Assembly: GCA_001775475.1 (NCBI GenBank)
Contig: MEWW01000003.1
Location: 1 to 42,048, forward strand
Reading direction: 5' to 3'
Source of the DNA: Candidatus Adlerbacteria bacterium RIFCSPHIGHO2_12_FULL_53_18
GTDB lineage: Bacteria > Patescibacteriota > Minisyncoccia > Phycocordibacterales > SBAW01
DNA: 42,048 nucleotides
Shown here: positions 2,681 to 11,397 of the stretch, one piece after another
How the letters are laid out: every line of letters starts with the position of its first letter
Numbering within the stretch: position 1 is the first letter of the stretch
The notes under the pieces: model-generated
Database searches by the model: none
Told to the model about the DNA's origin: nothing
Seen by the model: only the letters and a program-made list of their open reading frames with translations
Position numbers and translations under genes: made by a program

Positions 2681-2708
2681 TTGAAAAACCCGCCCAGGGG
2701 TCTATACT
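2681..2708 (+). promoter_or_regulatory. sigma70-like promoter
   Basis: TTGAAA (2681-2686), 16-bp spacer, TATACT (2703-2708). Confidence 0.6.
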
Positions 2709-2713
2709 AGGTG

Positions 2714-2920
2714 GGTACAACTGAATAGCCCGTAAGGGCAACAACCTAACCCGTCAGTAATGGTGGCATGGTTGCGGAGCCAGGTAATGCGTGAAGAACC
2801 CGTCATGGGGTCGCATTACCTGCCGTATTGGGAAACTGATACGTACGCGCAAGCGTAGCTCTGTGACGGGCTCTTTGCGTTCGGGAAAGCGTAAGAACCT
2901 ATATCGCATTATTAGGTTAC
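2714..2920 (+). ncRNA. highly structured RNA: 5' leader or independent ncRNA
   Basis: Perfect 11-bp stem CAGGTAATGCG (2781-2791)/CGCATTACCTG (2812-2822). GCCC-GTAA-GGGC (2728-2739). CGTAT/ATACG (2824-2828/2839-2843). TACGC-GCAA-GCGTA (2844-2857). AACCTA/TAGGTT (2896-2901/2913-2918). Two AACCCGTCA copies compete for TGACGGG at 2864-2870. Confidence 0.65.
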
Positions 2921-2930
2921 TAGACGCATT

Positions 2931-3731
2931 ATGAAAAAATTGTTTACATTGTTTGCACTCCTTGTCGCTGTTCTTGTTCCTTTCAACACAGCGTTTGCTA
3001 TCAGAGAATGGTGGGACCCCATCTACTTTCAAGAGGTTAAACCCTACAGTCCAACCCAGTACGACGTTGATGTACGCGAGCAAATGTTTGGTACCAAAGC
3101 AGAAAGGGCTGCCCATGAAGCACAGCAGCGTCTTATTGACTCCATCAACCAGACAAATGAGCTTTTGCGCAGACAGCAGTTACGGCAGATGCTCAGACCC
3201 CAACCTGTCTACCCAGTGGTCATGCCGGTGTATCAGCCCACATTAACCATTGACCAGCGATGCAAGGATGCTTATGGCTTCAACTCATACGGAAGTGGGG
3301 ATACTTGCTACTGCTCATCCGGATATCAATGGGCATCTGATATGAAATCTTGTATTCCGGTACCTCTTCCTCCTTCAGATGCTGAGCAAGTTGCCGGGGC
3401 AATCATATCGAGTGCTAGGCGTGCTCCTGTTACAAACCCTGCTCCAACCCAAGAGAATAGTGGAGACGACTGCTCTATCCGTGAAGGACGCACGCAGAAC
3501 GGCTACTGTGTTTCGCACCAAGCCTCATGTGTTGAAGCTTTAGGTAACAACGCTGTGTGGACGGGAGAGGTAGACAATGCGGGCTACCCAACATGCGCAT
3601 GCCGGACATCGTGGAAAATATCCGCTGACGGAGGGTCGTGCGTATCAAAAGGTAGCCAGACCGCAGCAGTGGCGAGCGACTCATCCAACTGGCTCCAGAG
3701 GTTCTTAGTATGGCTCGGTATAGGGCTTTAG
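2931..3731 (+). CDS. secreted cysteine-rich protein
   Basis: Signal peptide MKKLFTLFALLVAVLVPFNTAFA; C-x-C rich segments (CKDAYGFNSYGSGDTCYCSSGYQW...); hydrophobic C-terminus NWLQRFLVWLGIGL. Confidence 0.7.
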   Translation: MKKLFTLFALLVAVLVPFNTAFAIREWWDPIYFQEVKPYSPTQYDVDVREQMFGTKAERAAHEAQQRLIDSINQTNELLRRQQLRQMLRPQPVYPVVMPVYQPTLTIDQRCKDAYGFNSYGSGDTCYCSSGYQWASDMKSCIPVPLPPSDAEQVAGAIISSARRAPVTNPAPTQENSGDDCSIREGRTQNGYCVSHQASCVEALGNNAVWTGEVDNAGYPTCACRTSWKISADGGSCVSKGSQTAAVASDSSNWLQRFLVWLGIGL

Positions 3732-7584: not shown

Positions 7585-7663
7585 ATCTCAAATTTCCCTT
7601 CTTATACTTAAACACCGTCTGCTTGCTCTTAAGGTGCATTTATCCACAATTTCCCGAAAGGTG

Positions 7664-7688
7664 TATAATAGCAGTAGAGGGCTATTAT
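7664..7688 (+). promoter_or_regulatory. -10 box with overlapping operator-like inverted repeat
   Basis: TATAAT (7664-7669) overlapped by perfect 8-bp inverted repeat ATAATAGC-agtagagg-GCTATTAT (7665-7688); -35 is weak. Confidence 0.5.
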
Positions 7689-7972
7689 CAGGCCGTACTT
7701 TGAGTTTAAACACCTGCTTATAAAGCAAGGGGAGGACCAACGCCTACGGGCGCCTCGCGTTTGTGGACGTAAACCACACGTGTTGCAGACGATAACTGCA
7801 CGTGGCACAAACCACGTATGTCGCTCCGGTATTTCAAGGCGTATTTGATGCCAGCGACCCGTTACCATTTGTGCTCTGGTAGACGCAAGATGTTCAGGAA
7901 CGCCTTCAGGTTAGACGAAATTAACCACTGACTACTCGGTGAGTGATTTCTTCGAAGCTGAGGCGTTTTTTA
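7673..7972 (+). ncRNA. putative ~300-nt structured ncRNA with 3' terminator-like stem
   Basis: No credible ORF. Nested stems: AACGC/GCGTT, GTGG/CCAC, CACGT-GCAG/CTGC-ACGTG, ACGTGG/CCACGT, GTCGCT/AGCGAC enclosing GGCGT/ATGCC. Final stem AACGCCT(T)CAG (7899-7909)/CTGAGGCGTT followed by a T-run near 7966-7971. Confidence 0.55.
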
Positions 7973-8007
7973 AAGACGTCTAGTTATCTACTTAAAGTGC
8001 AGTGTAA

Positions 8008-8045
8008 GCGCGATGGGCTCGAAACCCATATACCCTTTGTCGCGC
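8008..8045. repeat. double-stem palindrome just upstream of the resolvase gene
   Basis: GCGCGA-[ATGGG-CTCGAAA-CCCAT]-TCGCGC, 14 bp before the ATG of the recombinase at 8059. Confidence 0.5.
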
Positions 8046-8058
8046 ACGGTTAATTGTT

Positions 8059-8550
8059 ATGAAGAAGCAAAGTAAGAGAGAAGAGGTTACCGTCGGTATT
8101 ATCTATGTACGCACCAGTGCAGATGAAGACGGATTATTAGACCTTGAAGAGCAGGAACGTATATGTAGAGAGTATTGTGAAAAAAAAGACATCAAGGTGG
8201 CGCGTGTCTTTCGAGATGAAAATGCGTCGGCAAACAATATTTATCGTCCGGGTCTCATAGAGGCGGTGACCTATTGCGACAATCATTATGTCGATTTGTT
8301 GATTACCTCTCACCCTGACCGCTTTGCACGAAACGCTACAGCTTGTGAGTTACTGGAGCTAGCTTTGGGGCGAACTGGTGTCTTTGTACTCTACGCGATA
8401 GACGACAAAGTAGAGGAGACTGCAGACGGTTGGCTCTCTACTGCAATGAAAGCAATGTTCGCAGAATACTCTTCCAGAATACAAAGCGAGAGAATAAGGC
8501 AAGCAATACCACTTAGGAGATGGCCTAAAGAAAAGGGCACAGACGCTTAA
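8059..8550 (+). CDS. small serine recombinase (resolvase/invertase catalytic domain)
   Basis: GIIYVRTSADE (catalytic Ser), YRPGLIEAV, DRFARN, AMKAMFAEYSSRIQSERI. Confidence 0.85.
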   Translation: MKKQSKREEVTVGIIYVRTSADEDGLLDLEEQERICREYCEKKDIKVARVFRDENASANNIYRPGLIEAVTYCDNHYVDLLITSHPDRFARNATACELLELALGRTGVFVLYAIDDKVEETADGWLSTAMKAMFAEYSSRIQSERIRQAIPLRRWPKEKGTDA

Positions 8551-8774: not shown

Positions 8775-10520
8775 ATGACCACTCCTACAGGAATTACAGC
8801 AGGGCCCCGCTTAATTGCTTACTACGGGCGCGTCTCAACTTCACTTCAGGAGGACCAAAAGACTATAGATAACCAATGGATGGAGCTCAATGAACTTGCA
8901 GAAAAACTCTACGGAAAAGACGGCTACATAGTTGTGCGTAAGTATGCAGATGAGGGATGGTCCGGCGATATATTGGCCCGACCGTACTTAGACCAGTTGC
9001 GACAAGATGCAAGAGCGGGACTTTGGGACATCGTGTTCATCTATGACCCCGACCGGCTCGCCCGTCGATACTCATACCAAGAACTCGTACTGGACGAGCT
9101 ACGAGAGGCAGGCAAAGAGGTTCACTTCAAGACAAGGCAAGCTCCTAAGGACCCTATGGAGAAAATCCTCTACGGCGTACATGGCCTTTTTTCGGAGTAT
9201 GAGCGAATGAAGATAGCGGAGCGTTTCCGCATCGGTAAACTTCGCAAGGCCCGGAGCGGCCATATAGTCTTGAGTGATGCGTTGTATGGCTACACACTCG
9301 TACGCAAACAAGGTAAGCCTGCGGACGCCGACTTTATAGAGACGCATTACATTATAAATGAGGTGGAGGCCCGTGTCGTAAGAATGATTTTCGACTGGGT
9401 CGGCAATCACAAGCTGTCTCTGCGTAAGATTGTGCGGCGTTTGCAGGAACTCGGTATACGTCCCCGCAAGAGCAAAAGGGGAGTGTGGAACACCTCTACC
9501 CTCTCCTCGATGCTGAGGAATGAGACACATATAGGCAAAGGTCACTACGGAGCGTCATATGCAACAGTACCCAAGAAGCCGTTCAAAAAAGAAAGGTACC
9601 AAAAGGTAAGGAAGACAAGCCGGCAGATGAAGCCCAAAGAGGAGTGGATTATCATACCAACCCCCGCCCTTCTTGAAGGCGAGGAAGGTAAGGCATTGTT
9701 TGAGCGCGTACAACGTCAGCTTAGAGACAACTACGAGACCTCTAAACGCAACAAAAAGAACCACTACCTCCTTGCCGAAAGGCTACGTTGTTCTTGTGGT
9801 TGCACTCGCACAGGCGAAGGACCACAAAAAGGTAAATACCTCTATTATAGGTGTTCAAATCGTGTTAAAAACCACCCTCTACCACCCACATGCTTTGAGA
9901 AAGGCATTAGTGTACCCATTGCAGACGAGAAGATTTGGGGAAAACTTACACAACTCATGAGCTCAAAGGAGTTAATCTTGCAGCAAGTAGAACGTTGGGC
10001 GACACAAAATAAAAATGAAGCCAAAACCTCGCTTGTTAATACAGACACGTTAAGGAAGGAAATCTCCAAGCTTAAGAAGCAGGAAACTCGTTACGATGAA
10101 GCATACGGTAAGGGGGTGTTCACTCTCGCCAAACTGCAGGAGTTAGTTAAGCCGGTAAAGGATAAGGTTGCCGAGCTTGAGAGCCAGATTGTTCAAGACC
10201 GAAGCGCGGATAAGGGGCAAGGAGACAACTCAACTTTACTCCCCAGCGAGGTAGAGATGCTCAAACCGTCGAACCCTAGGCTCCTCAACGACTTGAGTTT
10301 TGAACAAAAACGCGAGATAGTGCTGGATGTCATAGACGGAATAGTAGGAGTGCCTGGAAAGCTCACGGTTAGTGGCTTTATACCGGTAATGCTGGTGTCT
10401 CCTTACCAATATGACTTCTCTTTCAGACATGAAGGCTCGTCAATAACAACTTATGTCAAGCTCAAAACTAGCGATAGGTATTGTAGGACTCCCGAACGTA
10501 GGAAAGTCCACCCTTTTTAA
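8775..10520 (+). CDS. large serine recombinase / integrase
   Basis: AYYGRVSTSLQEDQKTIDNQ, DPDRLARRYSYQ, recombinase domain, zinc ribbon CSCG...YRCSN...C, C-terminal coiled coil; ORF ends 68 nt inside ychF. Confidence 0.93.
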   Translation: MTTPTGITAGPRLIAYYGRVSTSLQEDQKTIDNQWMELNELAEKLYGKDGYIVVRKYADEGWSGDILARPYLDQLRQDARAGLWDIVFIYDPDRLARRYSYQELVLDELREAGKEVHFKTRQAPKDPMEKILYGVHGLFSEYERMKIAERFRIGKLRKARSGHIVLSDALYGYTLVRKQGKPADADFIETHYIINEVEARVVRMIFDWVGNHKLSLRKIVRRLQELGIRPRKSKRGVWNTSTLSSMLRNETHIGKGHYGASYATVPKKPFKKERYQKVRKTSRQMKPKEEWIIIPTPALLEGEEGKALFERVQRQLRDNYETSKRNKKNHYLLAERLRCSCGCTRTGEGPQKGKYLYYRCSNRVKNHPLPPTCFEKGISVPIADEKIWGKLTQLMSSKELILQQVERWATQNKNEAKTSLVNTDTLRKEISKLKKQETRYDEAYGKGVFTLAKLQELVKPVKDKVAELESQIVQDRSADKGQGDNSTLLPSEVEMLKPSNPRLLNDLSFEQKREIVLDVIDGIVGVPGKLTVSGFIPVMLVSPYQYDFSFRHEGSSITTYVKLKTSDRYCRTPERRKVHPF

Positions 10521-11397
10521 CGCGCTCACGAAAAAAAGCGTGCTGGTGGCAAACTACCCGTTTGCCACCATCGACCCCTCGGTCGGGGTGGTGGCAGTGC
10601 CGGATGAACGTAGAGAAAAACTTGCACAATTTTCTAACTCTAAAAAAGACATCCCTGCGGCGGTGGAGTTTGTTGATATTGCAGGATTAGTGAGGGGTGC
10701 GAGCGAGGGCGAGGGTTTGGGCAACCAGTTTTTGCAACATATCCGCGAGGTGGATGCTATCGCGCACGTGGTGCGTGTGTTTGACAACCCGAACATCTCT
10801 TCGGTACACACCCAGATTGACCCTCTGCATGATATAGAGCTTATTAACACGGAGTTACAGCTTGCTGATATAGAAAAGACAGAAAATCTTATCAGCAAAA
10901 AACCCGTGCTCTATGTCTTAAACAAAGAGGCGGGCGGCCACAACCTAGACGAGCTAAACGACGGCCGCTGGGAGCGGCTCATGGAATATTTGAAAGATAA
11001 AAAGTGGGTGATTGTTGATGCCCACGTAGAGAGCGAACTGCGGGAGCTTCATACCGACGACAAGCAACAGTTTAGGCAGGAGTATGGCGTGTTTGATGAC
11101 GGTATCAATGCGCTCATACGCAAAGGCTATGAACTTTTGGGATTAATCAGCTTTTTTACGACCGGCGAAGACGAAACTCGCGCATGGACGATAGTTAACG
11201 GCTCAATGGCGCCAAAAGCAGGCGCCGCCATCCACACCGACTTTGAAACAAAGTTTATCCGCGCCGAGGTTATTGAATGGCAAAAACTTTTAGAGGCCGG
11301 CTCGCGCGCCGCTGCACGGGAGAAAGGGTGGATCAGGACAGAAGGAAAGGAATACATTATAAAGGATGGAGATGTCATAGAATTTCTCCACGGGTAA
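10453..11397 (+). CDS. ychF: redox/ribosome-associated GTPase YchF (Obg family), short form
   Basis: GIVGLPNVGKSTLFNALTK, ANYPFATIDPSVG, FVDIAGLVRGASEGEGLGNQFL, C-terminal TGS domain HTDFETKFIRAEVI...KEYIIKDGDVIEFLHG. Confidence 0.95.
   Translation: MSSSKLAIGIVGLPNVGKSTLFNALTKKSVLVANYPFATIDPSVGVVAVPDERREKLAQFSNSKKDIPAAVEFVDIAGLVRGASEGEGLGNQFLQHIREVDAIAHVVRVFDNPNISSVHTQIDPLHDIELINTELQLADIEKTENLISKKPVLYVLNKEAGGHNLDELNDGRWERLMEYLKDKKWVIVDAHVESELRELHTDDKQQFRQEYGVFDDGINALIRKGYELLGLISFFTTGEDETRAWTIVNGSMAPKAGAAIHTDFETKFIRAEVIEWQKLLEAGSRAAAREKGWIRTEGKEYIIKDGDVIEFLHG
10544..10570. repeat. perfect 11-bp hairpin inside ychF
   Basis: TGGTGGCAAAC-TACCC-GTTTGCCACCA. Confidence 0.7.

Follow-up and report, generated by a model that had tools for sequence, protein, structure and literature searches.

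Within the window (the whole 42,048-nt stretch of DNA that was analysed, and the entire contig C3 of a 540-kb genome) lies a full-length LOOT RNA, and we found that LOOT RNAs share a conserved long helix which extends beyond the Rfam model and claims a strand of one of the stems known before. On the basis of sequence comparison, we think it probable, though well short of certain, that this LOOT is a bistable cis-regulatory 5' leader of a cargo gene on the serine-recombinase element of a Patescibacterium. More tentatively, and with slightly less than even confidence, we propose that LOOT represents a novel class of leaders with two states, which Patescibacteria mobile elements set before arbitrary cargo genes and which combine a conserved core, a P3 address strand matching a copy at the start codon, and a co-evolving long helix as toggle.

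The first-pass annotation of this DNA, which was made from the letters alone, had recognised no known Rfam class in the leader. The cmscan search against Rfam 15 that it proposed overturned this claim, with positions 2743-2857 (+) matching LOOT RNA (RF03000) at full length (E = 7e-12; 72.5 bits, gathering cut-off 46.4; model positions 1-121 complete) as the sole match above the gathering score across the 42-kb window. The hallmarks of the family, namely stems P1-P5, the conserved CCUAA...GGCAUGG segments, and capped P4 and P5, were found in the cmscan alignment, in a sequence-only MAFFT alignment (A1) and in the helix counts. LOOT is an orphan family of Rfam type 'Gene; sRNA' to which no function is assigned. 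It was derived from metagenomes and came into Rfam 14 from the ZWD collection (PMC7779021). In a covariation study it comes up solely because its cross-covariations are unusual in number (PMC7657543), while two covarying pairs added for it are reported with Rfam 15 (PMC11701678); no functional study of LOOT was found in the literature searched. New with respect to the Rfam model are the 5' end with its promoter, the 3' strand of the long helix, the leader position, and the copy of a P3 strand at the start codon.

All elements that had been listed for the leader were recovered in the sequence, displaced by a base or two at most (Table 1). The claim that the region is strongly structured also held in a comparison with shuffled controls, as 2700-2935 folded with z = -3.67 and 1 of 200 shuffles was as good. 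For the probable transcript, 2717-2881, z was -3.72 and none of 200 shuffles was as good, while the minus strand reached only -1.94.

Table 1. Features of the LOOT leader and of its presumed host element in the window
Feature	Position	Strand	Basis or remark
Sigma-70-like promoter TTGAAA-16-TATACT	2681-2708	+	sequence; -10 offset 14
ACAACTGAATA, conserved, probable transcript 5' end	2717-2727	+	consensus in 50/87 loci; outside Rfam model
Optional 5' hairpin GCCC-GUAA-GGGC	2728-2739	+	sequence; subset of loci; predicted folds
LOOT RNA as in Rfam, stems P1-P5	2743-2857	+	cmscan
P1 (2743-2746/2770-2773) around P2 (2751-2756/2761-2766)	2743-2773	+	cmscan alignment; covariation, helices 1 and 2
P3, 11-bp stem (2781-2791/2812-2822)	2781-2822	+	covariation, helix 3; predicted fold
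Small apical hairpin of P3	2798-2801/2808-2811	+	predicted fold
P4, 8-bp stem, GAAA loop; includes CGTAT/ATACG	2824-2843	+	cmscan; helix 5, 96% of cells paired
P5, 5-bp stem, GCAA loop	2844-2857	+	cmscan; predicted fold
Alternative long helix, 5' strand; overlaps end of P3 5' strand and entire apical region	2789-2811	+	
Alternative long helix, 3' strand; beyond Rfam model; weak U-run CUCUUUG	2858-2880	+	
AACCTA/TAGGTT hairpin ahead of start codon	2896-2901/2913-2918	+	sequence only
AACCCGTCA, two copies	2748-2756, 2797-2805	+	sequence
TGACGGG, single	2864-2870	+	sequence
Cargo gene, 266-aa secreted Cys-rich protein	2931-3731	+	no Pfam family above cut-off
Large serine recombinase (Resolvase + Recombinase + zinc ribbon), presumed host element	8775-10520	+	full-length

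In order to compare the leader with its homologs, we took 60 LOOT loci from related genomes (59 relatives and the window), with about 10 kb on each side of the relatives' LOOTs, contig permitting, read in register with the window. A second, independent set, with 27 loci, came from other genomes and families of the phylum, with three further misoriented loci excluded. In 60/60 loci, the strand at the tip of P3 was complementary over about 15-22 bp to the roughly 20 nt that follow P5. In the window, this helix comprises 2789-2797/2872-2880 and 2799-2811/2858-2870, which is 22 bp with one A-C mismatch. The duplex energy averaged -26.3 kcal/mol for strands of the same locus, against -14.9 kcal/mol for strands of different loci. 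In alignment A1, 14 of the 18 pairs were changed on both sides, and double-change cells numbered 170 versus 48.2±8.1 in shuffled alignments. Like all counts of loci given here, these are somewhat inflated by the separate counting of related loci. Since shuffles alone ignore relatedness, a control with slid partners matters here; the covariation score of the helix was 0.489, compared with 0.180 when shuffled and at most 0.176 with slid partners. This control lessens the worry about inflation, as does the independent set, where the same helix was present in 27/27 loci at about -19.9 kcal/mol or better. Thus the covariation among homologs that the first-pass annotation had suggested looking for is there, in the long helix.

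These data also decide between the pairings proposed for TGACGGG. It had been suggested that either copy of AACCCGTCA could pair with it, so that two loop copies would compete for one partner. The second copy with TGACGGG is the core of the long helix, which is found in all loci and covaries. The first copy falls in the P1/P2 region, inside stem P2, and its pairing with TGACGGG was rejected, as covariation was 0.154 versus 0.137 shuffled and there was no advantage over slid partners (60.1% versus 60.7%). In the relatives, therefore, only the apical copy of the 11-bp stem pairs with TGACGGG, and the likeness of the first copy to the second is a coincidence of the window sequence. The real competition is for the apical strand, between the local stem (P3 with its apical hairpin) and the distal strand.

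Both states of this strand were supported by prediction. For RNA 2717-2860, the predicted fold was that of LOOT P1-P5; with 21 nt more (2717-2881), the predicted minimum moved to the long helix and P3 was lost. The two window folds have energies of -67.3 (long helix) and -65.9 kcal/mol (P3). Over 59 loci, the long-helix fold minus the P3 fold came to +0.6±4.9 kcal/mol of about -65. The apical hairpin of P3 averaged -5.4 kcal/mol as against -1.8 kcal/mol in shuffled sequence, and was better in 58/60 loci. Judged from geometry, P3 and the long helix would be unable to form both in full, because only 0-1 nt lies between them on either side. Hence, of the original idea of a structured leader with exclusive or pseudoknotted folds, the folds are borne out by covariation among the 60 related loci and by near-equal energies, and the two competing loop copies are not.

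The -10 element and the 5' end are conserved as well. ACAACTGAATA or a close variant stands shortly before LOOT in 50/87 loci, and in 40 of these 50 a -10-like hexamer starts 12-14 nt ahead of it. In the window, the first base of TATACT is exactly 14 nt upstream of 2717, and TTGAAA follows after a further 16 nt. Given this spacing, transcription probably starts at about 2717. About 60-100 nt before LOOT, many loci (L039, L044, L055, L057, L070, L071, L075, L084 and others) share a stretch resembling GTTGGTAACC-CTTCGCAAGCC...CTAAGCTA.GGTG, which in some loci adjoins TTATCCACA, a DnaA-box-like sequence.

LOOT lies in front of genes. In 79/87 loci, an ORF of 60 aa or more on the same strand begins 14-110 nt behind it (median 56 nt; 76 with ATG), and by the same rule divergent ATG ORFs upstream of LOOT were counted in 21/87. 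The proteins behind LOOT are unrelated to one another; they include DNA methylases, zinc-ribbon and superinfection-immunity-like proteins, a host-cell-surface lipoprotein, FemAB and a protease, and many match no family. One shared leader before unrelated genes favours a cis element and disfavours a metabolite riboswitch of one pathway. Like riboswitches and attenuators, LOOT combines a 5'-leader position with two alternative predicted folds that are near-isoenergetic, and in some members the expression platform touches the start region. Unlike them, it has downstream genes that do not belong to one pathway across the loci, and each LOOT has its own P3 and long-helix sequence, with no conserved binding pocket.

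The strongest functional clue is given by the start codons. An ATG was assigned in 80 loci, and 20 of these carry a second copy of 8 nt or more of the P3 5' strand no more than 6 nt upstream of the ATG. Only copies of a locus's own P3 were counted, where 0.47 would be expected from the P3 of other loci, and they span many different P3 sequences (for example AAACTCGCTACAA in L057, AAGCCGTTCAGAGTA in L088 and AAACCAGTCACGGT in L110). With the 5' strand copied before the ATG, the P3 3' strand, once freed, would be antisense to the initiation region. Such a leader-stem strand complementary to pre-ATG bases recalls start-region sequestration by anti-Shine-Dalgarno stems or by plasmid and phage antisense RNAs; in LOOT, however, the strand that would sequester is normally held in an 11-bp stem belonging to a conserved RNA, and it would pair with a copy of a stem strand and not with a Shine-Dalgarno sequence. 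In the window, no copy of the P3 5' strand precedes the ATG, and start-region sequestration of this kind was not found there. All that its pre-start region offers is ACGCATTA at 2924-2931, which is weakly complementary to the P3 5' strand.

Other roles of these sequences were considered and set aside. A general role for a pre-start complement like ACGCATTA was rejected, as it occurs at chance level family-wide (2/60 loci). P3 sequences do recur in unlike LOOTs, with 16 pairs versus 0.34 in column-shuffled data, which partly reflects common descent of subtypes; a guide-like P3 was not retained, and no targets of P3 other than the start-codon copy were found. Most loci carry a U-run, GGGCUUUUUGU, in the 3' foot of the long helix, and it is strong in many. 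It is weak in the window (CUCUUUG) and missing in at least 8/60 loci, for example L044 (GGGGUUCAGUGU), so that termination is not the general output and a constitutive terminator was dismissed as the general role of LOOT.

The surroundings of LOOT point to mobile elements. A large serine recombinase family was found in the examined flanks of 46/60 loci. The recombinase was within 5 kb of LOOT in 33/60 loci, where the genomic density of PF07508 would lead one to expect 1.4. Per genome, the counts of LOOT and PF07508 were correlated (rank correlation rho 0.52, p = 5e-8), and PF07508 was present in 30/32 genomes with LOOT as against 36/67 without. The flanks also carry restriction-modification genes and, in L057, a CBASS-type nucleotidyltransferase. 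The element of the window is read as inserted at ychF, because the frame of its recombinase overlaps the 5' end of ychF (10453-11397) and the ychF relatives have other sequence upstream. In the window, its left end was not found and an empty site was not shown, and the contig starts inside or near the element. In G042, a relative from another family, a recombinase match was likewise seen on the strand of ychF, about 0.7 kb upstream of the gene. Immediately upstream of the full-length recombinase of the window, a resolvase-domain ORF of 163 aa (8059-8550) is possibly a truncated second recombinase.

The distribution of LOOT is patchy. Among 99 related genomes it was present in 32, with up to seven copies per genome, and most sister species were without it; of 384 genomes taken from the phylum, 84 had it. 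Most of the genomes compared were metagenome bins. A 20-base conserved LOOT pattern was matched in 36 stretches of named genomes, mostly Patescibacteria (Adlerbacteria, Nomurabacteria, Zambryskibacteria, Staskawiczbacteria and others). A few were labelled as uncultured bacterium, Clostridia, Bacteroidetes, Bacteroidales or Pacearchaeota bins; we read these labels as probable binning errors. In viral contigs, there was no exact match to the same pattern. Among the relatives, LOOT occupies unrelated loci. Several LOOTs may lie on one contig, as in L053 (230-351 and 1227-1344), G211:C3 (8772, 17612 and 17988) and L059 (3956 and 8305), with no more than hundreds of bases between some of these copies. 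The two L059 copies are each followed by a gene of their own, which looks like a repeating cassette of LOOT plus gene. In L080, L081 and L083 (G015, G027), the flanks are homologous, with the upstream leader and the same downstream gene family, and the LOOT sequences are clearly different, which suggests that the variable stems of LOOT change faster than similar loci do, or swap between them.

For the bistable leader, we propose the following course of events. A transcript from about 2717 would fold into P1-P5 once P5 has been made. About 20 nt later, the apical strand of P3 could re-pair with 2858-2880, and the longer helix would dismantle P3. With nearly equal predicted energies, the two folds may form a two-state switch of the gene behind LOOT. 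In roughly one family member out of four, the P3 3' strand would, when freed, cover the bases before the start codon, and translation would be blocked in the alternative fold. Members lacking the start-codon copy, the window among them, would have another output, such as premature termination at the U-run of the long helix where one is present. We infer this other output, as well as the switching in cis. The switch could be triggered by a ligand, by an element-encoded or host protein, or by an RNA.

A discrete sRNA acting in trans is the alternative to which we give most weight, although we regard it as unlikely. The long helix with its U-run would then be an intrinsic terminator, and the exposed P3 strand would regulate mRNAs in trans, that of the neighbour included. 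The Rfam type and the U-run of most loci agree with such an RNA, and a P3 3' strand antisense to start regions in 20/80 loci would be usable by it, too. However, an ORF that begins 14-110 nt downstream in 79/87 loci leaves a further promoter little space, it is pairing and not U content that the covarying pairs of the helix foot (columns 99-102/202-205) preserve, and at least 8/60 loci have no U-run. LOOT might also be a static leader in which P3 and a shortened long helix form a pseudoknot, and no switching would then be needed; its fixed structure would serve mRNA protection, insulation of the gene from its insertion site or protein binding. That P3 and the long helix both covary is as this reading would have it, and a short loop-distal helix of 6-8 bp could coexist with P3. 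We nevertheless consider it improbable, given that the 0-1 nt between P3 and a helix of 15-21 bp speaks geometrically against both in full, that the apical strand has two conserved partners (the local hairpin in 58/60 loci), and that the energies of the two folds are nearly equal.

Two further explanations fare worse. In an antitermination leader of the phage put/nut type, the RNA would modify RNA polymerase so that the cargo genes are read through terminators. A strongly structured RNA at the start of mobile-element cargo transcripts, with unrelated genes behind it, resembles put/nut or EAR RNAs in this respect; but the window has no Rfam sequence or structure match to these, nor to any family but LOOT, and the start-codon copy of P3 and the conserved alternative helix would be left unexplained, so that we hold this reading to be very improbable. 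Still harder to credit is a feature of the DNA itself, either a recombination site or a protein operator, whose inverted repeats merely resemble RNA structure. The close association with serine recombinases and the inverted repeats at fixed spacing would suit it, whereas the upstream promoter and start site are fixed, orientation relative to the gene is fixed, the loops are of GNRA type, and G-U pairs are tolerated in P2 and P4.

Returning to the bistable leader, the window RNA shares with RF03000 the stems P1-P5, the CCUAA and GGCAUGG segments, the GAAA-type P4 loop and a Patescibacteria host; it departs from it in that Rfam files the family as sRNA, while the genomic position of the LOOT loci speaks for a cis leader. 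The hosts of this orphan RNA family are bacteria that are very difficult to grow, and with the extra helix, the 5' end, the leader position and the start-codon copies an 'unknown sRNA' becomes a concrete testable hypothesis. If it is true, mobile elements of the candidate phyla radiation control their accessory genes, among which are DNA methylases and superinfection-immunity-like genes, through one reusable RNA scaffold, and each element carries a private, gene-specific switch on the common scaffold.

Two other non-coding regions of the window were observed. Between a DUF2807 protein and the resolvase, about 400 nt without a gene (7660-8058) folded at -139.9 kcal/mol, better than every shuffle (z = -4.38). 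Close to its end, this region has a T-arm-like hairpin, AUGGG-CUCGAAA-CCCAU. It had no Rfam match above threshold (a weak tRNA-like match scored 19.9 bits), and similar DNA was absent from the 59 relatives. Upstream of the gene that precedes LOOT, about 1 kb (1025-2094) is almost free of ORFs, with one 86-aa ORF on the minus strand.
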